NCBI GenBank assembly: GCA_951394045.1
Contig: OX595996.1
Coordinates: 1,674,001 to 1,738,000 of the forward strand
DNA from: Nitzschia sp. DOCU1
Lineage: Eukaryota; Bacillariophyta; Bacillariophyceae; Bacillariales; Bacillariaceae
DNA: 64,000 nt
Direction: 5' to 3'
The position numbers were made by a program, and so were the translations under genes. Below the pieces are notes generated by a model, which was not told the origin of the DNA, searched no databases, and saw only the letters and a program-made list of their open reading frames with translations. Positions 9,477-44,520 of this stretch are shown piece by piece. Numbering within the stretch: the stretch's first letter is position 1; the number at the start of each line of letters is the position of its first letter.

Positions 9477-12400
9477 TCATCCCAAGGGGTTTGCGTTGCG
9501 TTTTGCCTGGGCCATGCTCGCTGTGATCGCCGGCATCCAGATACCGATCCAGTCTTCCAATTGGTCCGGGGTGGGATTCGTCGCCAAGTGTTGAGCTAGC
9601 GTAGGATAGTACATGTGGCGGTCGGTAGGCATGGTTTGATCTCGCCATTCGTAGAGTTCAGTCAGTCTGGAGCGTAGGAATACCAGGCGCAACTCTCTTT
9701 GTTCAGTGGCGTCTTTCCCATGGCGTGCTTTGTTGCGGATTTCCCATAGTTCGAACCATTTTTGTAGAAACTTGCTTCCAATTTGGCGGACCCAAGCTGA
9801 TCCGTCAGAGGCTTTCTGATCCAAGTGCAATCATGCTGCATATTCCCGGTGTAGACGGCTCCACTCTAGACTCCAGCGTGCCCGAAAGAGGTGTGACCAT
9901 CCGATCCGATTCTGCGATATGATTAACCCTCGGTAGGGTTCGGGGTATTCCAAGGGATTGATGTCATCTAATTCCTGAAGCCAGCGTTGGGTACCGTCTC
10001 GAAGGATATCACTGAGGATCGGGTCTGAGGATGTGTACGTGGTGAAATTTGTGATGCATGTGGAAATACTTTGGCGCCAGACACGACGAGTGTCGCATGG
10101 GCATAACATGATGTGGTCGTTTGACTCCAGGGGGCAATTGCAGCTTGGGCATCCTGCAGGATAATGTGCGTTGTTGCGATGGGCAATTTGACCAGTCGGG
10201 GCGATGAGATGGAGATGCTTTACAAGAGTTGTTTGTTGCTTGCGGTGACCTCGGAGGATCTGTTTGTAGGTTGGCCAGTCAACGTGATCGTGAGTATCTT
10301 CGGCCCATGTGAAGAGCTTTTCATAATACTTCATCAGTTTGGGTATAGTTGCCGCGTCGCGGATCCGAGTTTTATAGTAACTGGAGATGGAGTCATTGCC
10401 GATACAGAATTGGGCCTGGGTGGATGGTAACATAGGGGCGTGGGGGATAACCTGACCATGCGTCAGTTGGAAGTCGCTGGCTTGGTCGTCCGCTTCGCAG
10501 TTCAGGTTGGCAGACAGAGAAAGTGTTGCCCGAGGACGAGATTCATCCTGGTGGCCCTTGACCCATGTCAGTACACCGACTGTGGGCAGCAGTTGCCGCG
10601 ATTGCACAATCATGTCGATCAAATCCCAATCTGGAGCAAGGGTAGCGTTGGGGACATGATATTTCCATTGGGCTTGTTTTGTCACCCGCTTGATCACGCT
10701 GGTGTTGTCGATGTAGTGCCTGAAGTCAGATAGAAATGCGGTGCCCGTGAATTGCGACAACCGATACAGAAACCGATAAAGAGCCAAAGCGCCATAACCT
10801 TCAGCCCGAAAGGATTGGGGCCGAGAGCCTGGGGCGGGTCCGCGACCTCGAAATAGACGGGTGCCGTTGGAACTCGCGCAAACGTACCCAAAAGTAGCAG
10901 AGAGAGCGATGACCGAGCCGTCAGATGCAACGCTAAAGGGGCCGATATTTAGCTGGAGCATTATTTCTTCAGGAGGGGCGAGCAGTTCAAAATGGGTAAG
11001 CAACTGCACTTCCCACTCAGGAAGGCTGGCGACCATTTCAGCAAATGTGCCTGTCACATCAATTGTGGCTACGTCGGGTACCCGATAATTCAGCAAAGGG
11101 CGATGATCGAGGCCAGTAGGGAGGGCATAGCAGGGGAATCCAACGGCGTTGGTGGGTGGCAGGGTCGGATCTGGATTTTGATAGCGTCCTGGTTGGGTTG
11201 GCAGCAATCGATGGTATTGGTTGTGGTCTATCTGGACATACAGGGTATCAGTCTGGGGGTCATGCACGTATTCAGGACGCCGGCGGCAGTGGTCATGAGG
11301 CACAATCCATTCGCGCAAAAACTGGTGGAGTCGTCCTTGGGGGCTCGAAAAGGTGCGCAAGAACTTACGCCAAGTTAGCCATGCAGGTGAAAACGGGCGT
11401 GCTTGGTTGAACATTTCTGTGGCAATGGTGTGGCGAGTGGTCACAGACGTTCCATCCTCAATCCCCGGCAGAAGATGGGATCCCATGGCATTGGAAATAT
11501 CAGCAATGGTCACGGCCTGAAGAAACCTTCGGCAGCTGTTGATCCGGTCGAGGACGCGGGGGGAGTAGCCTTGGTCGATGGCCATTTCCATCAAATACTG
11601 GTCGTGTTCGCGGAGTCTCGGTGGGACGATGTCGCTCTCTGCCGGTAGGATTATACTTGCGTCTATTGATCGGAGGAACTCGGTGACGGCGTTGATCCAT
11701 TCGGCAGGGTGGTGTGGTGAAGCTTTCGATGGATTCGACCATAAGAATTCGGACGTGCCAACATACGCTTGTGCCCAACTTAGGGCTATGCGGAGGAGCT
11801 TCCCCGGTTGCCCGCCTGGTGATCGCAGATGTTTGAGGGCCATCAGATTTTGCAAAAGACCTTGCTCGATATATAGCCTTCGGAAGCCCGCCCCTCCAAA
11901 ATGCAACGGGCCGTATCGGATGGACAGGTGCATGTGGCTGTTGAAGCCACTATTACGAACGATAACTTGCATAAATCTGTTTTGGATGTCATCACAATCC
12001 GATGATCGAATACATGTTATCGGAAAGGGATATGTCAAGGACGGGAGGTACATGCTCACGTAGTAAGTGCGAGCTTCGGAGGGCGTGAGAATGTTGCTGG
12101 AAATAGTGTGGGCTTCCCGGTCGCTTTTTATTGTGAGTTGTGGCTTTTGCGTTCCCATTCGATTCGCCGGATTGACATAGCACCCTAGAGTCTTGTGCGA
12201 TTCGTAGTTGGATTTCTGGAGGACCTGAGAGGGGACGAGTCCATGGAACAGGGTAATGGGAGGGGCTGTGCGTCCAGCCACCAGGAATGGTGTACCATCC
12301 TTTCTCCAATCACTTTGAATTAAGTGGAACGAACACTTCGAAAATTCCAAGGCGCCTCCGGAAGCCCACAGTAAGTCGCTCCATACTTTGGCATCTTGTT

Positions 12401-15239
12401 GCATGCGAGCGCAAAGCGCCTCCGCCGTTGGCTGGACGTCGGCTGTAAAGTCATTCACACGTTGGGTGCAATCGTCCACAAACCCAATCATATGAATAGT
12501 CAAACGATGTCGGCCGTTATGAGACACGAACGTGGCGCCGGTGGTGGCAGAGGCAAATGCATCAAAAAGCACCGAGCAGATGAAGCACCAAATTTGGGGG
12601 GAATTACCCGAGCCTTGTCCCGTTCCATGGATAGGAAATGCTTCACAGTGCTGGTACCAACCCGCAGATATACCCAGACTTGTCTTCAGCTTAAACTTTG
12701 CTTCTTCGAGCGTGTTGGCATTGACAAGCACCACATGTCGTGACATGCCCATCCGCCGGCTCGAAATGGACGCGATGGCAGCCAAAATTCTATCGTAGCA
12801 AGAAGTAGCATCCAGATCGAAATTAATGCCAGATTTCATCGAGGTCATGTAGATGTCATTTTGTAGAACTTCGAGGAAGACCGGTTCGTGGGCCGACCGG
12901 CCAGCGCGGCTCCCATACAGGCCATCGTTGAGCAGATGATGATCTTCCGCATGATGCATTGCTTGCCGCCATTTGACGGCGAGAAGGAGATTGTAATCCG
13001 CCTCATAGAGGTGGATAACTCGGAGACGGTGGATTTTTGGGTCACCAATATCCTTTAATAACATGACATTAACTACGGCAGTCCATCGGCGGTAATGGTA
13101 GCCGAATTTCAGTGCGTATTGCAGAAGTGCAACATGGGCCTTGATCAGCAAGGCTTGACCGGATTCAACTTCTTGGGCTTGCGGTGTGTCAGGACTGAGA
13201 CCGTGATGACGAACTAGGGCGTGGTAGTGCCCCAGGTGGATACCACTAGGGGATGTGGAGGTCGACTCTGGCCAGCGTTTAATCTTGGCAAGAAATTCCT
13301 CAGTTGTGATGGTTGCAGGTAGAAGTGTCGCCGTTTGTCGGCGCAGGTGGCTAACGAACAATTGGGTAGTCTCGTCGAGGGTCGAGGCATCAAAGTCTCC
13401 GTTTAAAATCAAATCGGCGGCGGGTCCATCCCCGTTATAATGCAGCTGGGTGGCGATACCGGGAGTAGTCAGAGGAGTGCCATTGGCTTGGCCGAAATGC
13501 TTCCGGTTGCGATCGAGGAGGAGACGTTCGATTTCTTCAGGGGCTCTCTCGGTGCGCCAGTGAGCCGCCGAGGGCGGGCACTGTTTTGGGTCCATGGCTG
13601 GGTCAAGAGGTACTCGCAGACTTGTGATCCCTCCTGATGCACCGCCTTTGCGACGCATGGCTTGAAGTTTGACATATGTTCGATGAATGGCTTCGGCTTG
13701 TTTCAACCGTTGAACAATCTTGGCTTTGCCATGGTCCTCGAGGGCGGTATACATTCTGGCTTTATCCTCCAGGTACTCTTCTCGAAGACGTGATGCTTGC
13801 TGACGGGCCTCGCGGAGCTGGCGAAGGGCATCGTTGTATCCGGCACGGGAGGCGGCTAAGTTTGTAGGAAGATCGGCCGGAAGGAAGGAATGCCGTTGTT
13901 GCCAGGCGGCGATCATGGGATCGTAGTTAATCATTGGGTTCCGGTGCTTGGAGATCAGTAATTTGTAGAGCCGGATGGTGGCCCAGGCCTGCGCAAAAAG
14001 TGGGCTCCATGGTGTGCGATAACCTTTCTTGGCTTTCTTGGCTGCGTATTGAGCGGCTCGTTCCATGTCACGATCCAAACTTTCGGCCAGGCGGTGGTCG
14101 GGTGTCTCGAGCTCCAGCAATTGTTGCAATCGTTCTTCAAAATTGTGCGCCTTCAATTCTTGGACCTTGGCTAGAACATAGGCGGTAACGGCCCCGGGTG
14201 TTCTAGAATTAAAGTCGCGCTTCGAAAACGGGGATATTGGTGACGGTTTGTTGCCGAAGAGCTGGTTGGTGTCGAAATCAATGAAAAAGCCGCGATGGTC
14301 GCTTGTCATTCGGTATCCGAAGGGATCATACCCGGCAGCTTGCACCATGGGGACTAGTTCGGGAGAGATCAAGGCATAATCGATGCGCTTGTGGCCACTT
14401 TGGTGAGTATGAGGTACCGATGGAGTACCCAGTCGAGCACTGAACAAATCCACGAGCCCACATTCGGTTGCAATTTGGGCCATTCCAGAGTTGGCGCTGT
14501 CAATTTCTTCGTTGAAGTCACCCACGAGCACGATGCGGTCGCCGTTTTGCTGTTGTTGACGGATGTACTGTTGCAGGTCCCGGATAAATGCATTTCGTGG
14601 ATTAATCCGCGTGATGGTATTATTATTGGCTGATTCTTCCAGCAACTGACTCACTTGCTGAGTGGCTGCCGTATTGGTACCTGCCGCATTACTCTGACAC
14701 ACTTGATAGGCCGCAATGATATTGATCGTTGATTCATTGCTACCTTGGAGGCGAGTTGAAACCCACCTACCCATGCGGTCCTTGGATGTTTCTTTGACCA
14801 GGCTTGTCGTATCCTGGACAACGAGCATTCCCACTCCGCCAGGCTTATAGGTCCGATTGGTGTCCCTTGTGCCGGTGCTGGTCGTGAATCTATGATGGTC
14901 AAAGAAGCGCCCCTTAATTTCCTTCATCTTTTCTCGCACGTGGAACTTGTTTACATCCTGATTCAGTTCGGTGAAGCATGATACATCCGCGTGTACCGAC
15001 GATATTGCATCGCAGGTTGCCGGCCAGTTGCCGCCGTCCTTGTCCCATTTAATGCCATTCAGATTTTGGGAGTACAATCTGGTCGTGGTGGCTGGTTTGT
15101 CTTCTTGTAAAATATCCCCAATGAATTCATTATTTTCATAATCTAGTGCATCCATATCGTCGTCATCAAAGTCATTCTCTTCCTCATCTTCTGACCATGG
15201 GGCCAAAGGATCATCAGTGTCCATCCATGTTGCTATCAT
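9477..15239 (-). CDS. LINE copy B ORF2: endonuclease-reverse transcriptase-RNase H
   Basis: Start ATG at 15239. Residues 55-330 are an APE-type endonuclease: SQNLNG, Glu in FTELNQD, VGDFNEEID, RIDYALIS and the catalytic SDHRG. RT follows: DLDATSCYDRI, GTGQGSGNSPQIW and the active-site FVDD near residue 921. RNase H: ASDGS near 1438, RAEGYGALALY, SDFRHYIDNTS and WVKGHQDE. A zinc-knuckle-like CPSCNCPLESNDHIMLC is near 1690. The frame meets TGA at 9831-9833 after REYAA and stays open in the same frame to 9477 (LHLDQKASDGSAW...KWFELWEIRNKARHG), the conserved C-terminus seen in copies A and C. The stop is probably a CGA-to-TGA mutation. The protein would nick target DNA and prime reverse transcription there. 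Confidence 0.92.
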
Positions 15240-16957
15240 TCTATCATCGGCTGGTCAGCGTGACCAGCTACGGACGAGGTTAATTCGGCTTCGTCAGGCT
15301 CTGTAGTTTTGGATCGCTTCGGGGTAGACGGATTGAGTTCCAAATTGGTTTGTTGAATGTGCAGCATCTGTTGAACCATGAGATGCATCCGTTCCGTTTG
15401 AGCAGTTTGCGCCTGGATGGTTGCAGTGAGTGCCGCCACCTGAGCCTGATTTGCAGCAGTAATTTCTGCTAGTTGGGCCTGGAATTCTTGACGGTCTTGA
15501 TCTCATGCTGCATTGGAAGCTGCAAGAGATTGAAGAAGCGCATTGTGTTCGACAGACGAGGATGAGCTGTAGCCACCACCGTGGCGTCCGCTATTTCTAC
15601 CGCCGCTTCCGCCGGAGCTGCGGCCTGCTGCCGACCTGTACGAACGAGGTGTTTCGAGCGTGACGGTTGAAGCCGGAGATGGGCTGTTGTTGGTTCGATG
15701 GACCGAGGGAGGGTGACTCGTCGGATAGGCTTCAGTGATGCTGGGACCAAACATTTCGCCCTCATCTAAGTCTTGATCCGATTCTACTGTAACCACGGAC
15801 ATTGCGTTGGTGAAAGCGGTGGCATACGAGTCTTCGTCTCCGTCTTTGGCATCGTCGCCGGTCGCTGCCGAAATAATAGCCGCCACTGGGTGGGTATTGG
15901 GAATTGAAGCTAATGCCTGAGGGCCAAGCGAAGTCATCAAATAATTCCAATGTGCTCCAAGCCATGTGCGGGTTTTGTAGAAGTGGCGTTCTTCAACTAG
16001 CAATTTCCATTCGCCACGGTCCTGTCGGTGGAAGGAGGGAATAACATTCATCACTCCGGGGCGATCCTTAATTTCCGGCCAGAGCTCATGCATGGCTTCC
16101 TCAGTAAGGCCCTCGATCTTAATAACCCAGGTGGTGGCTAGAGTGCGGTTCTGGCGCTGGATAGCCTTAAGAAAGGCATCCGGCTGTCGGCGTTTGTATG
16201 CGTAGGGGACAAAGGGCATGGACTTGCGGAACGGTCCGCTCTTCAACAATTTAGCGAGCTGTTTGGCGTCACTGCGAGCACACTGAATTTCGTACGCCGA
16301 TGTCTGGTGGAACGCGTGGGATTTTTGACCGGATTTAATCCTCGCGGTCACTACTTCGAAGGTGGGAACGTCATGAGTGAACGAAGCAAGATCGGCTTGG
16401 AGCTGAAGTTTGGCGGTGTGGCGGTGCATATGTTTTACGTTGTAGCCTTGAAGGAAGCCAATGTGGGCAATGTCCCAGATTTCAGGCGCGAAGTGATGAG
16501 CGTTGACGTAAGCACCTGCGGATTTAATGGCTTGGAATACCGCGTAATGCTGCTTGATAGTGGATAGGGAAACCCGTGAGACCAATTTGTGGACGCAGTA
16601 CCACCTTTCTAGTTCGCGTTCACGCGCCGAAGGGGCCGCATGAAATTGGAATTTTGATGCTAGAATAGTCTCAACCGTAGTCTCAGACGCCACGAGTTCC
16701 CTGTTCGTCTGATCGAGGATCACAATGTCTTCTTGGAAGTGCTGCATAATCGTCATTAACATGTCCGCATGGAGCTTCTTCGCCTTGGTACGATCCGTTA
16801 CGCGTTCGAGACACCAATTCACACAGATTTCCATCATTTTTCGCTCATTCTTCTTGCTACCGCCGGAGGCAACGGTGGTGACTTCGTCATCGGCCATAGC
16901 ACTAGGGCTAGATCGCGCAAGAGGGACGCCAGTCACTCTGGAAGGGTCGATCACCAT
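15236..16957 (-). CDS. LINE copy B ORF1 protein
   Basis: The frame is open further upstream but crosses the element's 5' end at 17089, so the start must be internal; ATG 16957 (MVIDPSRV) or 16897 (MADDEVTT) fit. The N-terminal half is helical with basic patches; there is no CCHC knuckle. The region around WVIKIEGLTEEAMHELWPEIKDRPGVMNVIPSFHRQDRGEWKLLVE (residues about 280-330) has a beta-alpha-beta look compatible with an RRM-like fold (inference). A Gly/Ser/Arg-rich tail follows. TGA at 15503-15505 interrupts; the same frame then continues through a Gln-rich predicted coiled coil to TGA 15238-15236, overlapping the ORF2 ATG. Likely role: RNA binding in the retrotransposition particle. Confidence 0.8.
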
Positions 16958-22938: not shown

Positions 22939-23992
22939 GTGCCTCGCGCGGGGCAGGGCCCCACGTGGGGCCTCAGGCCCCACGTGGGGCCCAAAAATGT
23001 CCCCCTTTTGTCGTGGTGAAACAAGGTCAGATCCGACCCCCAGGAGCTGAAACTTGGACCCCTTAAAGTTTACGATATGAACTTTTTGGCAGAGTTGTCC
23101 GGAGTTGCCAGAACTCAGTAGTTGTTATCCCTGCGGGGGTTAAAGTTGGCTCAATCGGCAAATTTTCGTCGCACACATGTCGCGCGTGCCAGCCTGGCCC
23201 CACGGGCCCCACCGTAGAAAGTCTACTGTATTCTACAGAAATTTTGGGCAAAACGGCAAGCTACTACCGTCCGACGTTGCAGAGCTGGCACATACTCAGT
23301 ATTAACAAAAACTAAACATACCAATGAAAACTTTGCTAACTCCGCCAGCTTTCGTCTCATTTGAGCGACGCAGAAATCCAGCCGGAAGAGTTAGTTTGGT
23401 TGGCTTGAATGGTGGCTCCGCCATGAATTTTGTGAGCTCGAGGGGGCGGTGCCGGCGCGCATTAATTTCGTCCCGTGTTAATTTCGCTAACAAACCATAA
23501 GGCAAGTAGTAACCACTCATATAATATAGGACTAGTGAGCTAAACTAACAAAAACAATGTAACTAATCGATTAAATATGATGTTGAAACATCTATTACAT
23601 TAGTGTAGAGTCGATAGATTCGATGGGTGCCAACTCTGCAGTAGTCGACGTTTTGCCATGTGGTCAAAATATTTTCTTCCAAGCCCCACTCCTACTAATT
23701 ATCGCGGTGATTTACCGCGTGCGCGCGGTAACCAGCTACTTCCGTCCGACGTTGCAGAGTTGGCACATACTCAATATTAGCAAAACCGTATGATATCTAT
23801 TAAAACTGCACGAAGTCCGCTACCTTTCTTCTCATTTGAGCGACCAGATAATCCAGCCGGAAGGGGTCGTTTCGGTGGCTTGAATAGTGGGCCCCATTTC
23901 TAATTTACCGCGGTATACCGCGTGCGCGCCTCGAGCCCCATGGGCCCCACGTGGGGCTTGGGGCCCGTGGGGCACTGCCCCGCGCGAGGCAC
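22939..23992. mobile_element. 1,054-bp inverted-repeat element with TA duplication (non-autonomous)
   Basis: The ends are perfect inverted repeats of at least 18 bp: GTGCCTCGCGCGGGGCAG at 22939 and its complement ending at 23992. TA flanks both sides (22937-22938 and 23993-23994), as expected for Tc1/mariner-type insertion. It is GC-rich near the ends with CCCCACGTGGGGC palindromes. There is no transposase ORF. An internal direct repeat (23262-23400 versus 23732-23880, for example TCCGACGTTGCAGAG and CTCATTTGAGCGAC) is present. Confidence 0.8.
23262..23885. repeat. Internal direct repeat of the inverted-repeat element
   Basis: Two diverged copies, about 23262-23410 and 23732-23885, share CCGTCCGACGTTGCAGAG, TGGCACATACTCA, CTCATTTGAGCGAC and ATCCAGCCGGAAG in the same order. 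Confidence 0.75.
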
Positions 23993-27925: not shown

Positions 27926-28274
27926 AGTATAGTAAGTGCGGACTCTACCTGGTACGCTTCGTTGACGAAAGTAATGAAATGCAGCAAGGAGCTCTGCGTC
28001 GGAATGCGGTACGTTCGCATCGGAAGCACAAGCAAAACACACATTAGCTTACCTTTACGGGACACAATGCGTGACCCACATGAGAAATGCGGGACAAAAC
28101 GTCCCGCAAAAGTTCTCCTGATAAAAATTTTCCCCTATGTAAAATAGCGCTTAAGTCATCATTCCAACAATCAGATGAACTTTACGGGACAATTGTCCTC
28201 CATTCGATTTTTGCCAGGATCGTACGAATCATCACTTTTACATCAACACCGACATACAACCAACACCAGGAAAA
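27926..28274. other. 5' flank of the Crypton element and of the TPR gene
   Basis: Contains the promoter side of the TPR gene and the left part of the Crypton. GGACAATTGTCCT (28187-28199) recurs downstream of the Crypton ORF. A second word GGGACAAAACGTCCC lies near 28093-28107. Confidence 0.5.
28187..28199. repeat. 13-bp direct repeat left of Crypton ORF
   Basis: GGACAATTGTCCT, identical to 31184-31196; the inner 12 bases are palindromic. Confidence 0.7.
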
Positions 28275-31025
28275 ATGATTGCCGATGGTGCGGTCGTCAA
28301 CGTGGATGAAATGCGGGAGGCCATTGTAGGTCGCAACACCTACAATAGCTACAAACATGACATCCTGAAAATCATCGATGCTGCAAACTCCGGAGAATAT
28401 CTAGAAGGATGGTTGACGCCTGCTACAGAAGAGTCCTACAAGTCACTGCTGGAGGAAGTTGAAAGTCTTGGTTCCACACGACAAAAGCAAACACGGAAGC
28501 ACGAGTGGGTCATCGAGGTTTTGCGTAACTGCGGCCAACAGCCTATCCTCAATGTTGATAATTGCACTGCCGCTTCATTCATGAGGTGGCTGCAAAGTGT
28601 ACGTGACCATGGCGGGCATTTTTTGTCGCAATCAGCATATAGCAACAGAAGTGCTGCTCTGCACCATCTCTTCCGGTGCCATCCAGACATGGAAGGCTTT
28701 CCTCCTACATTTGCAAGGGAACTGGCATCCTTGAAACGAGGATTCTTCCGCATTCTTGCCACCAAGCAGCAAGATGATGGTGATACTGCTGAAAATGGCG
28801 GGAAGAAGGCGTTGTCATATGAACTGTACGCCAAATTATGCGAATGGTTCCTAGCCGAGGGGACCCAGACAGGCATTTTTGCCCACTGCTTCCTTGTAAT
28901 GACTTGGAACTTAATGTGCCGTTCCAACAACACTACACGTATCCTCTTTGAACATATCACGTTTGAGTGGGATTGTATCATGGTCAAGTTCGCACAGCAA
29001 AAGAATGACACGCACGGGCATACCAAAAAGTACCCCCGTCATCTATTTGCGAATCCATTCCGTCCTGCTGTGTGTCCCTTCCTTGCATTATCCATGTATA
29101 TTGCCACATTTGGGGTAAACATTAAAGGAAGCGACCGGCTTTTCCCAGGGAAAAGTCAGTACAATCATTTTGCGAGGCATATGGAACGAACATTGAAGAA
29201 TCATGAAGACGAATTAATTGCCATGGGTTACAGGTCCTACAATGATCTCGGCTGCCACAGCATCCGAAAGGGTGCTGCCAAGTGGCTTAGTGGCCAGCCT
29301 GGTGGCCCATCCGCAATGGCAATTTGTATACGAGGTGGATGGACTCTTGGGGGGGTGAAGGACGTCTACATGACGTACGAGGCAGAAGGAGACGCCTTCT
29401 GCGGTCGCATGCTGGCATTGTTACCATTGCTCCAAAGCGACTTTGCAGCAAGCCCCCCCAAATTTCAGGGTGTGCCTCTTGCATTGGTGCAAACTAGTGT
29501 CGCAAAGGTTTATCCTACCCTCGTAAACTATGGTGAATTTTCAGCAGTTGCTCACCAATTATTGGCAAGGCTGGCGAGAGCCAAGGAATTCATCCTTTCA
29601 TGGCCACCAAGCCATGTTGTTCGACAAACAAACCCTCTCTTCTCCGACTTACCGCTACTTGAGCAATTATCAGGAGCTGCTGTAGTGCTATACCCATGGG
29701 AAAGCAATGATGGGAATGAGGACAACAGTGGTGATATGCAATTTGGATCCGGAATCCCACCACACGTGGTGCTACTGTTGACCAGCCGAAAGCTACTGCA
29801 TGAGTTTCGTCAATTTGCATCAAGCCATGATGGTCGAATGACCAATCTCATCAATGGTATCTTTGACGATCGCAATGTAGCAAATGGCAGTATATCCGAA
29901 CAGCGTATTCGGAATATTCTAACGACTACGCAAGAACAGTTCTATGACAGACTGTTCCAAGAACTCAACAATAATCAGGGTATGACTGATTCAATGACTA
30001 ATATTAACGAGGCTGCAGAAGATCGGCATGGTCGTCGAGGATTCGCACCCCATTTTCACCATGGCAAGTATTGGAGGCTACCTGCTAATTTTGGGTTCCC
30101 GAAGGGCACCGCCAGGGATCTATGGAGGCGTTGGAATGTTGGTGATACTGTCAATAACGTCCCCCCATTGCGGTCGCTAGACGCAAGGGAGTACAAGTTC
30201 ATGGATGGTGTTGAGGGGCAGCGCCCATCAAGGAAGCTTGTAGCGGACATGAAAATGGTCTGCGATTTTATTGAGAGAGAATCAGGGGTTGATTGTCGGG
30301 TAGCACTGACTGAGACTCAGTGCTTTGAGATCTTTGATAGGGTTGCAACCATGGAAAATGGTTTGCAATCGACTTCGAAGAGAAAAGCCCACACCCAATG
30401 GCGGACAGCTGTGAGGAAGATCCAGCGGATCAAACAAGCAGCTGCAACAACAATCGACCCAGCACCGAACCCACCAGCAATGGCCACTGCAGCTGCAACA
30501 ATCCCACAGGCTCCGGCGACTGCAACAATCCCACAGGCTCCGGCGACTGCAACAACTGCAACGACTGCACCGGTAGCAGCATCAGCACCAAGAGTCAGCA
30601 GACCAGCTCATCCAACAGTAACCCCAATTCCTCCTCGAAGAAGAAAGCGTGGCCGCCCCCGTAGAGTGGCAGCTCAAGATACCAGCGACGCATTTGCAAA
30701 TTCATTTCCTGCCTCGGAGCCAACTGTGTACCAACGACGGAGGGAGGCACAAATAATTGCCCAAGTGGCAATTGAAGACAGGGAGCAGAGAGACAGGGAC
30801 GAACAGAGACAGCTGGTTGAAACCGGCACTATTGTTCGTGATGGAATGAATAACGTTGTCCGGACTATTGGGCGATGCTGCATCGGAGGCTGCAACTTTG
30901 CAACGATGCAACTGTTGCATCGATGCGACTTCTGCAATAAGTATATACATGTTATATGTGCTGAACCCTTTTCGGATGCCTCACGGGACAAGTGGTCGTG
31001 TGGTTGTCGACGCCACACGACTTAG
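28275..31025 (+). CDS. Crypton tyrosine recombinase with AT-hook and PHD-like zinc finger
   Basis: 916 residues, uninterrupted, ATG 28275. Residues 15-160 form an N-terminal helical DNA-binding region. The catalytic domain has Arg216 in WNLMCRSNNT, H328-x-x-R331 in CHSIRKGAAKWL, Trp356 in RGGWTLGG and a Tyr nucleophile at 365 or 368 (VKDVYMTYEAEGD), the Crypton pattern. A basic AT-hook (RRKRGRPRR, about residue 790) follows an Ala/Pro/Thr-rich repetitive linker with a near-exact duplication (IPQAPATAT). The C-terminal Cys/His cluster (residues about 868-912: CC...C...C..C...H..C...C.C) resembles a PHD/RING-type finger. The intact frame suggests recent activity or a retained host function. Confidence 0.88.
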   Translation: MIADGAVVNVDEMREAIVGRNTYNSYKHDILKIIDAANSGEYLEGWLTPATEESYKSLLEEVESLGSTRQKQTRKHEWVIEVLRNCGQQPILNVDNCTAASFMRWLQSVRDHGGHFLSQSAYSNRSAALHHLFRCHPDMEGFPPTFARELASLKRGFFRILATKQQDDGDTAENGGKKALSYELYAKLCEWFLAEGTQTGIFAHCFLVMTWNLMCRSNNTTRILFEHITFEWDCIMVKFAQQKNDTHGHTKKYPRHLFANPFRPAVCPFLALSMYIATFGVNIKGSDRLFPGKSQYNHFARHMERTLKNHEDELIAMGYRSYNDLGCHSIRKGAAKWLSGQPGGPSAMAICIRGGWTLGGVKDVYMTYEAEGDAFCGRMLALLPLLQSDFAASPPKFQGVPLALVQTSVAKVYPTLVNYGEFSAVAHQLLARLARAKEFILSWPPSHVVRQTNPLFSDLPLLEQLSGAAVVLYPWESNDGNEDNSGDMQFGSGIPPHVVLLLTSRKLLHEFRQFASSHDGRMTNLINGIFDDRNVANGSISEQRIRNILTTTQEQFYDRLFQELNNNQGMTDSMTNINEAAEDRHGRRGFAPHFHHGKYWRLPANFGFPKGTARDLWRRWNVGDTVNNVPPLRSLDAREYKFMDGVEGQRPSRKLVADMKMVCDFIERESGVDCRVALTETQCFEIFDRVATMENGLQSTSKRKAHTQWRTAVRKIQRIKQAAATTIDPAPNPPAMATAAATIPQAPATATIPQAPATATTATTAPVAASAPRVSRPAHPTVTPIPPRRRKRGRPRRVAAQDTSDAFANSFPASEPTVYQRRREAQIIAQVAIEDREQRDRDEQRQLVETGTIVRDGMNNVVRTIGRCCIGGCNFATMQLLHRCDFCNKYIHVICAEPFSDASRDKWSCGCRRHTT

Positions 31026-34560: not shown

Positions 34561-35359
34561 GACCTCTGGTGAGAAGCAAGAATGAATTATGACGGATGGG
34601 GGAACGTCTTCTACCGATTAGAATACACTTGGATACTTTTTGTATAATGTTGTAAGCTGCTTGTTTTGTACGTGTACGCAGTGTGTTATAGAGTGGAGCA
34701 GGGATCGACAGGCTTGGTGGATAGATTCGTCCTCCTCTTTCCTTTATTGGTAGTGGCGGGGCCACCGGATGCTCAAGATGACCTTGCCCAGTAGTACTAC
34801 TCAGCAGAGGAGCTCGTCCAACGAAGTCCACTAAAAAGTCTAGTAGCTAGAGCTGAGCAAAAACTGCTGTGAGGAGTTCACAATAGAGACGGAATAGCTA
34901 TATTGATAGAGTTACCCCTCAATGGAGAGTCATCCCTACCCCGTCCTTCTGAGACTACAAGCAAACGGGATAGTACGAGTGATCATGATGAAGTCAGCCC
35001 GTCAGTCCCAGCCCAGTAATAGTCTTGCCTCGCCGAGCGAAAACCAACGTGCGGGCGACGGCCAGATCGTCAACCGATCTGTGTCGTCAGTCGATCCAGA
35101 AAAAAGTTGAAAAGATCCAATCACATGATGCCATTGAGGGCAACAACACATCATCGACCAAGCAAGGCTTCGCAAGTCGAATCACTTTATTGACATCATT
35201 CAGCCTCCTTGTCCTCTTCGAACTGGAAGAGTCACCGAAGAGTTTCGTTTGATCCAACTAAAAGTCAGTCGCCTGGGGTCGTCAAAGAGAAACCAGAACA
35301 AAAACGACCAATCGTCATCTGATCCAAGTACAAAAAGAAGCTCGACTAATCCAGAAACA
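34561..35359. other. Intergenic; 5' region of the cyclophilin gene
   Basis: No convincing ORF, repeat or RNA gene seen. Confidence 0.5.
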
Positions 35360-37284
35360 ATGAAGATTCTATTTAATCTTTCCGTGGCCATTTGCCTGGT
35401 GCACCAACATCAGCCGGCACCAGGGGTCGTGGGATTCACGATTGCTCCATTGATTTCTTCTACTCCTGCAAAAACTCGCTCCGCGTCTTTGCACAGAGCT
35501 ACGAATTCTGATCAAAATCAGCCTGACGCAGTCCCCGCCGCCACTGCAACCAAACGACCAATACTATCAACCTGGGTTGGCAAAGTAGCAGCGACGGCTG
35601 CCATGGCGGTCTCTCTGTGGGCCGGACCCACCATGATGGCGGCCGAGCAAGCAAGTATTTTGGGGGGTGGCTATCCAATTACCACGTCGTTTTCAGCTTC
35701 TGCCAAGGAAATGGCATCGGGAACGGGCTCGCGTGTGAATAAAGATGCTGAGTCCTTACTGAGATATGGATTGCCAATTCAAAACAAAGAGGTGAGCACA
35801 GTTCTATTGCGATTCGTCCTGTGGATCCTTCCAGAAATAGGAACCTTGCTGTTGCTTGTAGGAGAATCAAAAAGTTGTTGGCGGCACCGGGTTCGATACG
35901 ACTAGCACTCAGTCGAACAATGTTTGTCAGGTTTTCGTTTTCGTTTGCTTATCATGGTTCTCCTTGTACTTTTCATGTCTCCACCTCGGTCACCCTAACA
36001 GTCGTTTCCCTTTTGTTTCTGTTCATCACAATCACTGCTATCTTTTAGGTGCGTTCGTTGCAAGAAGCATTGGAAACTATCAAATATGATATTGCAAGTA
36101 AACGCAAGGCTGCTGCGATCGATGGTGTCAAGAAGTCCAAATCCTTCCTGGCTGGTAAAACTGCCGACAAGATGGTGGCCAGTTGTCGCGATGCCAAGGA
36201 GTGCACCAAGCTACTCCAAGATATCGATGCTGCCTTGGGTCCCCTATCCAGTGCACTCAAGGACAGTCAAGATGCGTTTACGGGAAGTGAACAAGAACGA
36301 GATGCCCTTGACAAGGCCTATGTCGCACAAGAAAAAGCTTCTGATCTATTGACATTGTTGGAAGAACAAATGGTACCCGCCAACTATGTTACGCCCGTAC
36401 CGGCCGAATATGATGATTTGCCACAACTCAAGAAGCGCGCCACTGTCGAAATGATTATTAAAAAGGCGACACCAGGAGCTGTATTTGATGTGAATGGAGT
36501 CAACTATCCGGAAGCCAAGCTCGTCATGGTCATCGATGGATATACTGGTACGTTTTGTTTACTCGCGGGCGTTGCTTGTTTGCCCGTCGGAAGACATGGA
36601 CTCACTTATGCTACAATTGCGGCTTTGTGTTGTATCTATGGTTATCCATACAGCTCCCGTGACGGGTGGTAATTTTATTGATTTGGTTCAAAAGGGCTTT
36701 TACAACAATATGAAGATTCAACGCAGCGATGGCTTTGTCGTCCAGACAGGTCAACCGACTGACACCAAGGCCATCGGTTATGTGGGTAAACCTTGCAAAG
36801 CCATTGGTGCTGGCCCCAATGGAGAACGTCTGATCCCTACTGAAATTTTTGTTCGTGGGGACAAGGGTCCCTTTTATGAAAGCACCATCGAAGACGAAGG
36901 AAGAGGCGGTACGTTTTGTTTTTGCGGGCGTTGCTTGTTCGCCCGTCGAAAGACATGGACTCACTTTTGCTACAATTGCGGCTTTGTGCTGTATCTATGG
37001 TTATCCATACAGGAGAAGCTACGGTTTTGCCCTTTTCAAGTTATGGTGCCATGGGATGGGCCCGTGATGAATACGATGTCAACAGTGGCAGTTCTCAATT
37101 TTTTTGGCTCTTGTTTGACAGTGATTTGACGCCGGCTGGCAAAAATGTCTTGGATGGACGCTACCCCTGTTTTGGTTATGTAGTGAAGGGTTCCGACTTT
37201 TTACAAGATATCAAAGAAGGCGATGTAATTGCATCGGCCAAAGTAACGTCGGGATTGGAGTATCTGGTGCAACCCAAAGACTAA
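35360..37284 (+). CDS. Thylakoid-lumen cyclophilin-type PPIase, CYP38/TLP40-like
   Basis: Four exons (35360-35791, 36049-36547, 36654-36908, 37013-37284) give 485 residues; all introns are GT-AG. The N-terminus has a signal peptide with a VVG|F plastid site, then a Ser/Thr-rich transit part and a second hydrophobic signal (TAAMAVSLWAGPTMMAAEQA) for thylakoid import. The N-terminal helical bundle (EALETIKYDIASKRKAAAIDGVKKS...LLTLLEEQM) is the CYP38-specific region. The cyclophilin domain runs from [60 protein letters not shown] to SSQFFWLLFD...GRYPCFGYVVKGSDFL. In plants CYP38 assists photosystem II assembly; catalytic residues are often degenerate. Introns 2 and 3 are nearly identical in sequence. 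Confidence 0.9.
36548..36653 (+). repeat. Intron 2 of the cyclophilin gene, copy of intron 3
   Basis: 106-bp GT-AG intron in phase 1. It matches intron 3 along its whole length with about six substitutions and a 2-nt length difference; flanking exons do not match. Confidence 0.9.
36909..37012 (+). repeat. Intron 3 of the cyclophilin gene, copy of intron 2
   Basis: 104-bp GT-AG intron, also phase 1. Shared words include GTACGTTTTGTTT at the start, GAAGACATGGACTCACTT-like and CTACAATTGCGGCTTTGTG in the middle, and CTATGGTTATCCATACAG at the end. Confidence 0.9.
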
Positions 37285-37312
37285 GAAACAAACTAATAGA
37301 ACATTGTGTGTT

Positions 37313-38241
37313 TTACTTTCCTTGTTTCTTTCGTTCTTCCAACCACCCATGATGATCGACTTGCATGGTTCCTCCAATTTCAATGGGGAGCATATCTGGT
37401 GTCAATCCGAATTCGTCTCCCAAGACTTGAACGACTTCTTCGGAACTTCCGGAGTGAAACCGAATTCGCTGTTGCATGCGAGTGGGCATGAACATCTTTA
37501 CGATAGGCAACACCATGGATACAAAGTAAGGTGGATAGCATATGTGAATGCCACTCAATCGTAATGGCAACACGCCACTCATACTGTTCATGAACAACTT
37601 GCCCATGGTCGAATCGAACTGTGACAAACTAGCCCGTTGTGGATCCACAATGACGATAATCCCATGTTGTTGTGCTTCTAGATCGTCAGTAGCAGCGTGC
37701 AACACGTACCAAAAGGCACGAACCATGGATTCGGTTTCATATTTGGAGGAATCCAAATGACTCGGATCCCAGTACAACAAGGATCTACCAGAGGGATCCT
37801 TGGCCTTGTGCAGCAAAGTCATGACACCTAGACCGACAGCCACCTCGTCTTCCGACAAGGCTTCGGAAAGCGTGATCGGTAAAAAGGCTTTGGTGGGTCC
37901 AAAGATTTCGACTCGCTTTTTCCAGTATTTCACTAGGCGCTTGGCGGCGAGCTGAATGCAGCAAGAACGATTAGAACGATTGCGTCGTGCGATAGGAGTT
38001 CGACACTGGCACTTACATCCGCATTGAAAACTTCACAACGCAAAAATTTGAGTTTGAAATCATCGCCTACGAAATCACATTTGGCTTGGGCTTCTAGCCA
38101 ATCCGTCTTTTCCTCGGGAGGGATCAAGTCCAGCTCTTGCTGGAGCTCGACCTTTTTGCTTTCGAGTAATTCGGGGGTTTCGACGGGATGAACTTGCCCG
38201 TACACATCGGGAATTTGTCCTGCCGTTGCTTCACTTGTCAT
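37313..38241 (-). CDS. Sec14-like (CRAL-TRIO) lipid-binding protein
   Basis: Two exons (38241-38017 and 37951-37313) around a 65-bp GT-AG intron give 287 residues. The N-terminal helices (EFNADLAAKRLVKYWKKRVEIFG) match the CRAL-TRIO N domain. The lipid-binding domain has YWDPSHLD, MVRAFWYVLHAATDDLEAQQHGIIVIVDPQ, LPLRLSGIHICYPPYFVSMVLPIVKMFMPTRMQQRIRFHSG and the terminal LTPDMLPIEIGGTM, typical of Sec14 (LPxxxGG). It would bind or transfer phosphoinositides or other hydrophobic ligands at membranes. No signal peptide. It is divergent to the CoA-transferase gene and convergent with the cyclophilin gene, whose stop codon is only 28 bp away. Confidence 0.88.
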
Positions 38242-38980
38242 GGTAGTAACTCAACTATTTTGAGACAGCGAGGAAATACAAAACTGCAAGAATGACAGAT
38301 GACTCCCGTCGCGACGATGGCGACAAGTCCAACAAAAGGCCATGGTGCTACGCTGGGTGGGAAGTTGAGGAAAGTCCTTGCGGGCCATTCATGTGCACGC
38401 CGGCACCCATCGGCATCACAACGCATGCCGCGTCATTGCTTGCCCGGCTGGCGCGGACCTTTTGGGTACTACTTCAGTACTTTCCGACTCATATGAATAC
38501 AACCCTTCCGACTACATTACTCAAACCAAAAGTCATAGATTTTCTCCGACGCACTACTTCGGTCGTGGTGTGGGAAGGGTTGACCAACATTTGCGATAGT
38601 GCTCGACCTTGAGGATTCACACTAATTTGATGATAGCCGGACATGATATGGTTGGGAGGCCTGGTGTCGAGATGTGTTGCGAAACTCGACTACATCGATC
38701 AATAGTCTTCGAGCTAGTCGGAGATCCTGGCCGTCGTCCGTGTACTGTCGGGACGGACACAGAACACACGGGGTTCGCTTCGATCCCACGGGAACCAAAA
38801 ACAGCAAAGATCCAAAAAATCTTGTTCGCGGCGCAACTTCATTCTTGTTCCTTGCTTCGATTGTGACGATGATGCTGATGCATCCTTTCACTTTCTGCGA
38901 CACGACACGACACGACACGACACGATCCGAATCACAATTTGTTTCGTTTATGTCTCACCTTCTTCTTCTTGATCAAAATC
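38242..38980. promoter_or_regulatory. Bidirectional intergenic region between divergent genes
   Basis: 739 bp between the start codons of the Sec14-like and CoA-transferase genes, so it must contain both promoters. A CACGA pentanucleotide repeat (about 38898-38926, five units) lies close upstream of the CoA-transferase start. No TATA box or other site is claimed. Confidence 0.5.
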
Positions 38981-42939: not shown

Positions 42940-44520
42940 ATGCCTCTTTCGGTCAAATTGATAATCGTACCCAAGGAAATGGCCTCGGCACAAACCGAGG
43001 CCATGGAGGCCCGATCCGACATTCCGCAGGGTATGGTCATTGAGCAAGTCCTAAAGAAGAAAAGTGACGAGGAAGCGCCCGAACCAGAGCCAGCAGCTAC
43101 GACTGCGGCTGAAGTAGAACCAGAGACGGCAGCTACGACTGTGACTGGAGAAGAGCCAGAGCCAGCCGCTACGACTGCGGCTGAAGTAGAACCAGAGCCA
43201 GCCGCTACGACTGTGACTGGAGAAGAGCCAGAGCAGGCCACTACGACTGCGGCTGAAGTAGAACCAGAGCCAGCCGCTACGACTGTGACTGGAGAAGAGC
43301 CAGAGCCAGCCGCTACGACTGCGGCTGAAGTAGAACCAGAGCCGGCAGCTACGACTGCGACTGAAGAAGGAGAAGCTAAACAAGAGGAGGAATTAGACCT
43401 GAAAGATGCGACCGACGCCAACGCGTCCAGCTCCAGAAATAAGGACTTCCAGGCGAGTTCCGGGGATTGGTCCAAAGGCTCTATTTCCATTGACGAAGAT
43501 CGACAACAAGAATTGGACGATCAAAACATGTTTTACGCCATGAAAATCGAAAGCTCAGGTAAATATTCACGCAAGGCGGACCTGCAAGACATTGCCAATT
43601 TTGCAAAAGTGCCTACAATGGATAGCGACAAACTCAAAGAATGGCTCAAGTCATATTTGGAACAAAATTTTCCCACACAGTTGGAGAAACCCAACTGTAT
43701 TCCAAGATCAGCGCACATCAAGGATGACGTCAAAAAAGGATTTGACTGCTATAAAACTTATGGATGGAAACCGATCAAATTGAATTTACAGCCCGGTCTG
43801 ATTGATGTCAAGGACCAATGGACCAAACAGGTTACCCTCGAACAATTTCAGCTGGATTATTCGACAGACTTGGAAACGGCACTCAAAGAAAAGGGCGACA
43901 AGGAAATCGTCAGTAGCTTGCGCAAGGGAAAAATGCAAGGACATCCACTAGCAATGGACTTGTTTCAACAAAAAACTTCCAAAAAAGGAGAAGAATCCAC
44001 ACAAATTGTCACGGAATTCCGTGGAATGGATTCTGTCGTATTTACCTTGGGCAATAATCAAGGAGCTGGCAAGATTGATGAAGAAACGGGAGATATTGTG
44101 TGGCAAGATGTTAAGAAATTACGTGCCCTTCTCAAGGACAAGCCACTTCCTCAAAAGACGGGCAAGGGCGTTGCTCGTACTGTCGATGTATTGGCTTTGG
44201 AAAGTTGCATGAAGGCACGCGTCTATTACAAGGCATTCTTTACCGGAACCGTGTCGACAGATCATGGAAATGAACAATTCGATGGACGTCGATATTGGAA
44301 TTGGGATTTGAAATATCTATTGAGATATAATGGAGTTCCAAATGCTATCGTCATTTATCAAGATATCGAATTGAAATTCTACAGTCAAGTCCAATATGCC
44401 ATGGAAAATGAAGATTGGGAATGGAAACGAGTGGGTGGGGCATGGACCAAGGTCAAACTTAGTGACGCAGCGGTTGCGACGGAAGCTCTGGCAAATGCAG
44501 AACTAGGAGACGAAGTATGA
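42940..44520 (+). CDS. Repeat-containing protein of unknown function
   Basis: 526 residues, ATG 42940, single exon. Residues 46-141 are eight tandem 12-residue acidic units alternating EVEPEPAATTVT and GEEPEPAATTAA. A Lys/Glu-rich linker is followed by a globular part (residues 190-510) containing DLQDIANFAKVPTMDSDKLKEWLKSYLEQNF, CYKTYGWKPIKLNLQPGLIDVKDQWTKQV, RARVYYKAFFTGTV-like and YWNWDLKYLLRYNGVPNAIVIYQDIELKFYS. The final EDWEWKRVGGAWTKVKL is Trp-rich. No catalytic motif or membrane segment. Function unknown. Confidence 0.75.
   Translation: MPLSVKLIIVPKEMASAQTEAMEARSDIPQGMVIEQVLKKKSDEEAPEPEPAATTAAEVEPETAATTVTGEEPEPAATTAAEVEPEPAATTVTGEEPEQATTTAAEVEPEPAATTVTGEEPEPAATTAAEVEPEPAATTATEEGEAKQEEELDLKDATDANASSSRNKDFQASSGDWSKGSISIDEDRQQELDDQNMFYAMKIESSGKYSRKADLQDIANFAKVPTMDSDKLKEWLKSYLEQNFPTQLEKPNCIPRSAHIKDDVKKGFDCYKTYGWKPIKLNLQPGLIDVKDQWTKQVTLEQFQLDYSTDLETALKEKGDKEIVSSLRKGKMQGHPLAMDLFQQKTSKKGEESTQIVTEFRGMDSVVFTLGNNQGAGKIDEETGDIVWQDVKKLRALLKDKPLPQKTGKGVARTVDVLALESCMKARVYYKAFFTGTVSTDHGNEQFDGRRYWNWDLKYLLRYNGVPNAIVIYQDIELKFYSQVQYAMENEDWEWKRVGGAWTKVKLSDAAVATEALANAELGDEV
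43075..43362 (+). repeat. Eight 36-bp tandem repeats inside a coding region
   Basis: Units of 36 bp encode 12 residues each and alternate between two types, so the higher-order unit is 72 bp. The reading frame is kept throughout. Confidence 0.9.

Follow-up and report, generated by a model that had tools for sequence, protein, structure and literature searches.

Where introns come from is an old open question, and few cases show the donor intron, the new copy, the direction of copying and the insertion site together. The nearest precedent for the locus examined here comes from Oikopleura dioica, for which the passages of PMC3879977 on this subject report, among about 75,000 introns, four pairs of nearly identical introns (NIIs) whose two members lie in the same gene, with reverse splicing suggested as their origin (Denoeud et al. 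2010). Near-identical introns also occur as the introner elements of Micromonas and the introner-like elements of fungi, which the relevant passages of the literature describe as families across many genes (PMC3879977; PMC9860276; PMC8469720), the fungal elements being without target-site duplications and terminal inverted repeats. In Mycosphaerella, new introns likewise copy existing ones, forming large families in unrelated genes (Torriani et al. 2011, as cited in excerpts of PMC3443670, PMC3488318 and PMC8469720). The tally given in the corresponding part of a 2012 review stands at 14 unambiguous intron-transposition events (PMC3443670).

In this study, we analysed a 64,000-nucleotide stretch of DNA from Nitzschia sp. 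DOCU1 (the window) and describe a cyclophilin gene that offers donor, target site and direction all in one gene. Like the Oikopleura NIIs, as far as these are portrayed in the passages cited, the case consists of two nearly identical introns in one gene, with few such introns in the genome; unlike them, it belongs to a genome that is diatom-like, and the intron positions of relatives tell its older copy from its newer one. The resemblance to Micromonas and fungal introners extends to near-identity and, for the fungal elements, to the lack of target-site duplications and terminal inverted repeats, which is shared by intron 3; in contrast to those families, introns 2 and 3 amount to two copies in one gene. 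Similarly, a new intron appears to copy an existing one as in Mycosphaerella, although here the copying would have stayed inside one gene, whereas there it spread across unrelated genes and built up large families. We regard the pair as a new case of a known, rare kind, that of same-gene nearly identical introns. It seems to be one of the rare intron births that can be traced, as opposed to one copy out of a mobile intron family present throughout the genome. In the open-licence literature that we searched, we saw no diatom case of such same-gene intron copying.

The cyclophilin gene and its matching introns

The gene, which codes for a CYP38-like protein-folding enzyme, occupies positions 35360-37284 of the + strand, where it encodes a joined open reading frame (ORF) of 485 amino acids with three introns. 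Exon 1 (35360..35791), with its start codon at 35360, is supported by the joined ORF and by homologs, and is followed by intron 1 (35792..36048; 257 bp, GT..AG). Exon 2 (36049..36547) is supported by the alignment of relatives, by protein search and by the joined ORF, and exon 3 (36654..36908; 255 nt) by the alignment of relatives and the joined ORF; between them lies intron 2 (36548..36653; 106 bp, phase 1). Intron 3 (36909..37012; 104 bp, phase 1) separates exon 3 from exon 4 (37013..37284), which ends with the stop codon of the joined ORF. A scan of the closest homolog (P0002) scored a Pro_isomerase domain and a CYP38-type PsbQ-like domain, and precomputed annotation places both domains in all 120 homologs listed of a total of 712. 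Named homologs include those of Cylindrotheca, Seminavis, Fistulifera and Mayamaea, which we take to be diatoms, consistent with the diatom-like genome proposed in the initial annotation. A DNA search with the 551-bp cyclophilin locus identified one place in the genome, and a protein search of the genome with exons 2-4 returned the gene once and, at other places, three weak pieces with E values from 2e-7 to 7e-4. Viral contigs held no exact match to the 22-base core of the introns; a peptide pattern from P0002 matched three stretches there, none of which encoded a relative.

Removal of all three introns yields a single open frame of 485 amino acids, and a premature stop would arise at residue 352 if intron 2 were retained and at residue 469 if intron 3 were retained. 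Because ten relatives, three of which carry an MMETSP source label, align over both junctions free of gaps, excision of introns 2 and 3 at the predicted splice sites is well supported at the level of sequence.

Introns 2 and 3 share 99 identities over 104 aligned positions, with 5 substitutions and one 2-nt indel (93% over the full length), which corresponds to a Jukes-Cantor distance of approximately 0.05. Their local alignment score of 176 compares with 25 for the best of 300 shuffles, and in an all-against-all comparison of 264 kb, comprising the window and twenty 10-kb stretches, the match had an E value of 1.17e-38. It starts 1 nt before the GT, at an exonic G found in both places, and ends exactly at the AG, as would be expected of introners, which resemble each other from splice site to splice site. 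The exon flanks (150 bases each side) score at shuffle level, with 14 on the left and 15 on the right against shuffle means of 15.4 and 15.0, so that the two introns are near-identical amid unrelated exons, as same-gene nearly identical pairs are. Intron 1 is equally unrelated, scoring 18 against intron 2 and 21 against intron 3 where the best of 300 intron-1 shuffles scored 26 against intron 2, and the rest of the window gave chance matches only, of at most 14 bases. These results bear out the initial annotation, which had described two nearly identical phase 1 introns matching from splice site to splice site, with unrelated flanking exons and an unrelated intron 1; its 2-nt length difference stands as well, and its "about six substitutions" become five. 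Its remark that the introns of neighbouring genes are unrelated was checked indirectly, through the comparison of introns 2 and 3 with the rest of the window. Rfam gave nothing at 35000-38000 at E <= 5, nor at gathering scores anywhere in the window, so that the similarity is not accounted for by any intronic RNA gene known to date. Folding z scores of -2.23 for intron 3 and -0.85 for intron 2 were not taken as evidence of a conserved RNA.

From the near-identity, the initial annotation had proposed that the introns were introner-like elements; by introner we mean a family spread across many genes. In the 52.08-Mb genome (63 contigs), a search with the DNA of intron 3 at E <= 10 recovered introns 3 and 2 alone, and three pattern searches allowing up to 3 mismatches (5' hairpin region, middle and 3' end) each led to exactly two places with 0 control matches; for repeats, match counts of this kind set a lower bound, and strongly diverged intron copies could be missed. 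Instead of many near-identical copies in different genes, we thus see two copies in one gene, and this pair falls outside the rule by which a large survey, in the part that states it, recognizes an introner family, namely at least four copies whose encoded proteins are not similar (PMC9860276). Of the earlier interpretation, the recent copying of one intron into another finds support; the introner family does not.

Within the 264 kb, the all-against-all comparison yielded 175 repeat pairs on the same strand with lengths of 40-600 bp, 14 of which pass a loose GT..AG or CT..AC filter, and 13 opposite-strand pairs, 3 of which pass it. Thirteen of the 14 filtered same-strand pairs are listed, the remaining one being from stretch L010 or L014. 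Besides introns 2 and 3, those listed comprise neighbouring copies within L008, a repeat of 239 bp in L009, short elements of L011 and L026 and a 52-bp repeat in L020, and by eye none of them resembles an intron pair.

Age of the two intron positions

To place the two introns in time, we turned to relatives in the form of proteins predicted without splicing from metagenome contigs, in which the reading frame departs from the known protein wherever an intron lies. A search with exon 3, extended at either end into the adjoining intron, retrieved 91 proteins, and exon 4 with the end of intron 3 retrieved 205; the best 120 of the latter contributed 84 new ones, giving 175 distinct ORFs of mixed origin, with 0 confirmed sister species among them. 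At junction 1 (GYT|APV, the site of intron 2), 21 ORFs have unrelated residues before exon 3, a count that takes in P0148 (a labelled transcript) and P0196 (a weak case), that was lowered from 23 by leaving out the distant isomerases P0211 and P0212, and that is not a frequency of intron 2, as the length limits of the ORF search favour ORFs starting at that intron. In all 21, the last unrelated residue can be encoded by NNA, which an AG acceptor needs in this phase, compared with 12 of the 26 ORFs that continue at junction 1; the test is a weak one, with 12 of the 20 residues passing it.

Junction 2 (GRGG|EAT, the site of intron 3) presents a different picture. Here, 131 of the 175 ORFs run through (127 under a stricter rule demanding a match on both sides), 44 do not reach the junction or are not judgeable, and 0 break. 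Two apparent breaks proved to be misfits of the pattern within other motifs, and seven further possible breaks were rejected as stretches in which the relatives' residues are divergent yet aligned; another seven ORFs, P0213 among them, that begin at or just around the junction are not judgeable and could hide an intron there. The 131 include five distant ORFs (P0223, P0224, P0227, P0249 and P0266) whose frame breaks five residues upstream of junction 2, which indicates an intron near, not at, the intron-3 site in other lineages. Regarding the outcome that the initial annotation had set against introners, in which further copies are missing and relatives already carry both introns, the former is what we found and the latter is not borne out, with 131 of the 175 ORFs running through junction 2 and 0 breaking there.

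As transcripts too would run through, we kept a separate count of ORFs showing signs of unspliced origin. An ORF was placed in this set if it breaks at junction 1 or at YP|CFG, a third site, at which reading through yields W, the residue expected of a TG|G codon. Of 43 such ORFs, 39 reach junction 2 and all 39 run through, the other 4 not reaching it; for the junction-1 breakers, the figures are 17 of 21 and 17 of 17. Three of the 43 (P0128, P0147 and P0158) continue at junction 1, so some relatives are without intron 2. The YP|CFG intron site is found in many relatives (ORFs P0122-P0192) and a further site, GAM|GW, was seen by eye in a few of them; both are absent from the cyclophilin gene of the window.

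In exon 4, the closest of the best 120 of 205 proteins is P0213, an 86-residue ORF from a 1,223-bp contig that is 99% identical to the exon, starts inside it and differs from the window in its first residue. It may represent another strain or allele, and its start would fit the presence of intron 3 in another strain, although this proves nothing. The closest named-source relatives in that exon among the same 120 are P0142 (93%) and P0127 (91%), both of which run through junction 2, on contigs that may be transcripts. Taken together, 21 breaks at junction 1 and 0 at junction 2 indicate that intron 2 is old and intron 3 new, one site being old and the other newly gained in a set of ORFs of mixed origin with 0 confirmed sister species. 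Intron 2 thus occupies a position that is old and shared with relatives, the position of intron 3 being new, and the direction of copying is read from position and not from derived bases.

Reverse splicing and its rivals

An old site 2, a new site 3 and a shared sequence together make it the simplest history that intron 2 was copied once, from site 2 into site 3, which lies 255 coding bases downstream. We consider it probable that intron 3 is a recent intragenic copy of intron 2 that arose via reverse splicing (intragenic intron transposition). In such an event, the excised RNA of intron 2, with its splicing signals, would have been reverse-spliced into the downstream G|G site, the target being its own transcript or, alternatively, template DNA lying exposed. 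Fixation would then have come about via reverse transcription and recombination over a local tract, and the retention of introns 1 and 2 means that this tract must have been short. The gene would have tolerated the new intron because working splice sites came along and because removal of that intron restores the frame exactly. An ORF at 9831-15254 of the window may have been the source of the reverse transcriptase. Reverse splicing fits best on account of the exact splice-site ends, the sense orientation of intron 3 (the same as transcription), the lack of a target duplication at intron 3 and the nearby donor, with orientation and boundaries carrying limited weight in what is one copying event. 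The insertion site of intron 3 itself is G|G only, and no target-site duplication is seen there, the ends matching in register at 3 of 24 bases. The 2012 review describes how an intron can be reverse-spliced into the mRNA that it came from, with partial recombination, and in the same excerpt has reverse splicing demonstrated under non-physiological conditions only (PMC3443670). By analogy, the Oikopleura same-gene pairs attributed to reverse splicing in the passages at hand would count in favour of this origin (PMC3879977).

The excerpts of PMC3443670 also give the signature of intron gain via tandem genomic duplication, a duplicated sequence with AGGT at both ends. This route was rejected, as no tandem array is present at 35000-38500 and the exon flanks are unrelated.

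The main rival, which we hold to be unlikely, moves the copying to the DNA level: the region of exons 3 and 4 would have suffered a double-strand break and been repaired from intron 2, through a synthesis-dependent patch or a template switch, with selection keeping the exact intron ends. DNA repair commonly draws on nearby templates, which as general knowledge speaks for this route, and donor and acceptor are 255 bp apart on the same DNA and share a G of 1 nt at the left end of both sites. However, that one G is all the homology the exon flanks have, both ends lie exactly at splice sites and 0 duplicated exon bases were carried along. Weighing against reverse splicing in turn, selection alone could reduce DNA-level copies to those with exact splice-site ends in so conserved an exon. 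That an unrelated intron was already present at site 3 and was overwritten by intron 2 through gene conversion strikes us as very improbable, since it needs a lineage-specific gain plus an exact-ended conversion and no ORF breaks at site 3 (131 of 175 continue across it and 44 cannot be judged), even if both copies are in one gene and mutually accessible and the five distant ORFs breaking five residues upstream indicate that introns occur close by.

Least probable in our view is an introner family, with a mobile intron at site 3 or at both sites whose other copies were lost, have diverged or lie outside the assembly. Near-identical introns are the signature of introners, which are commoner in aquatic taxa according to the pertinent passages of PMC9860276, and at intron 2 the exon end ATACTG stands beside the intron end ATACAG (5 of 6 bases in register), a likeness that could be a worn target duplication. 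The likeness is possibly the trace of a target duplication and possibly chance. Against a family, the searches of the genome, one by DNA and three by pattern, recovered two copies only, although strongly diverged ones could escape them; site 2 is an old intron position, intron 3 has no target duplication, and no terminal inverted repeat of at least 5 nt, the mark of introners of the DNA-transposon type, was found within the outer 20 nt of either intron.

If reverse splicing did produce intron 3, a wider suggestion follows that we offer as tentative: the spliceosome could return a just-excised intron to its own gene, and the gain of introns could commonly begin with such cis re-insertion, from which introner families could then grow. 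In the passages on its filters, the large Introner survey removed pairs of similar introns with similar encoded proteins and kept families of four or more (PMC9860276). As worded, these filters would drop a same-gene pair; that this happened in practice is what we infer. The blind spot is testable; cis re-insertion is invisible to any survey in which pairs from similar proteins are dropped.

Other features in and around the window

The ORF at 9831-15254 lies on the - strand, is 1807 amino acids long and contains an Exo_endo_phos domain along with a reverse-transcriptase match slightly below the Pfam cut-off, features that make it a probable non-LTR retrotransposon as judged from its predicted protein. 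On the + strand, a 948-aa ORF (28179-31025) has 0 Pfam matches and by eye presumably resembles tyrosine-recombinase elements. A pair of direct repeats of 158 bp, 82% identical, is located at 23259-23415 and 23734-23890, and a tandem repeat with 72-bp spacing lies within a long ORF at 43081-43369. Outside the window, stretch L014 (1-10000) contains many repeats of ~400 bp throughout, and 54-bp elements with inverted-repeat-like ends (GTCTTATG..CATAAGAC) occur on two contigs (L011, 9872-9991; L026, 7968-8425), some copies being direct and others inverted.
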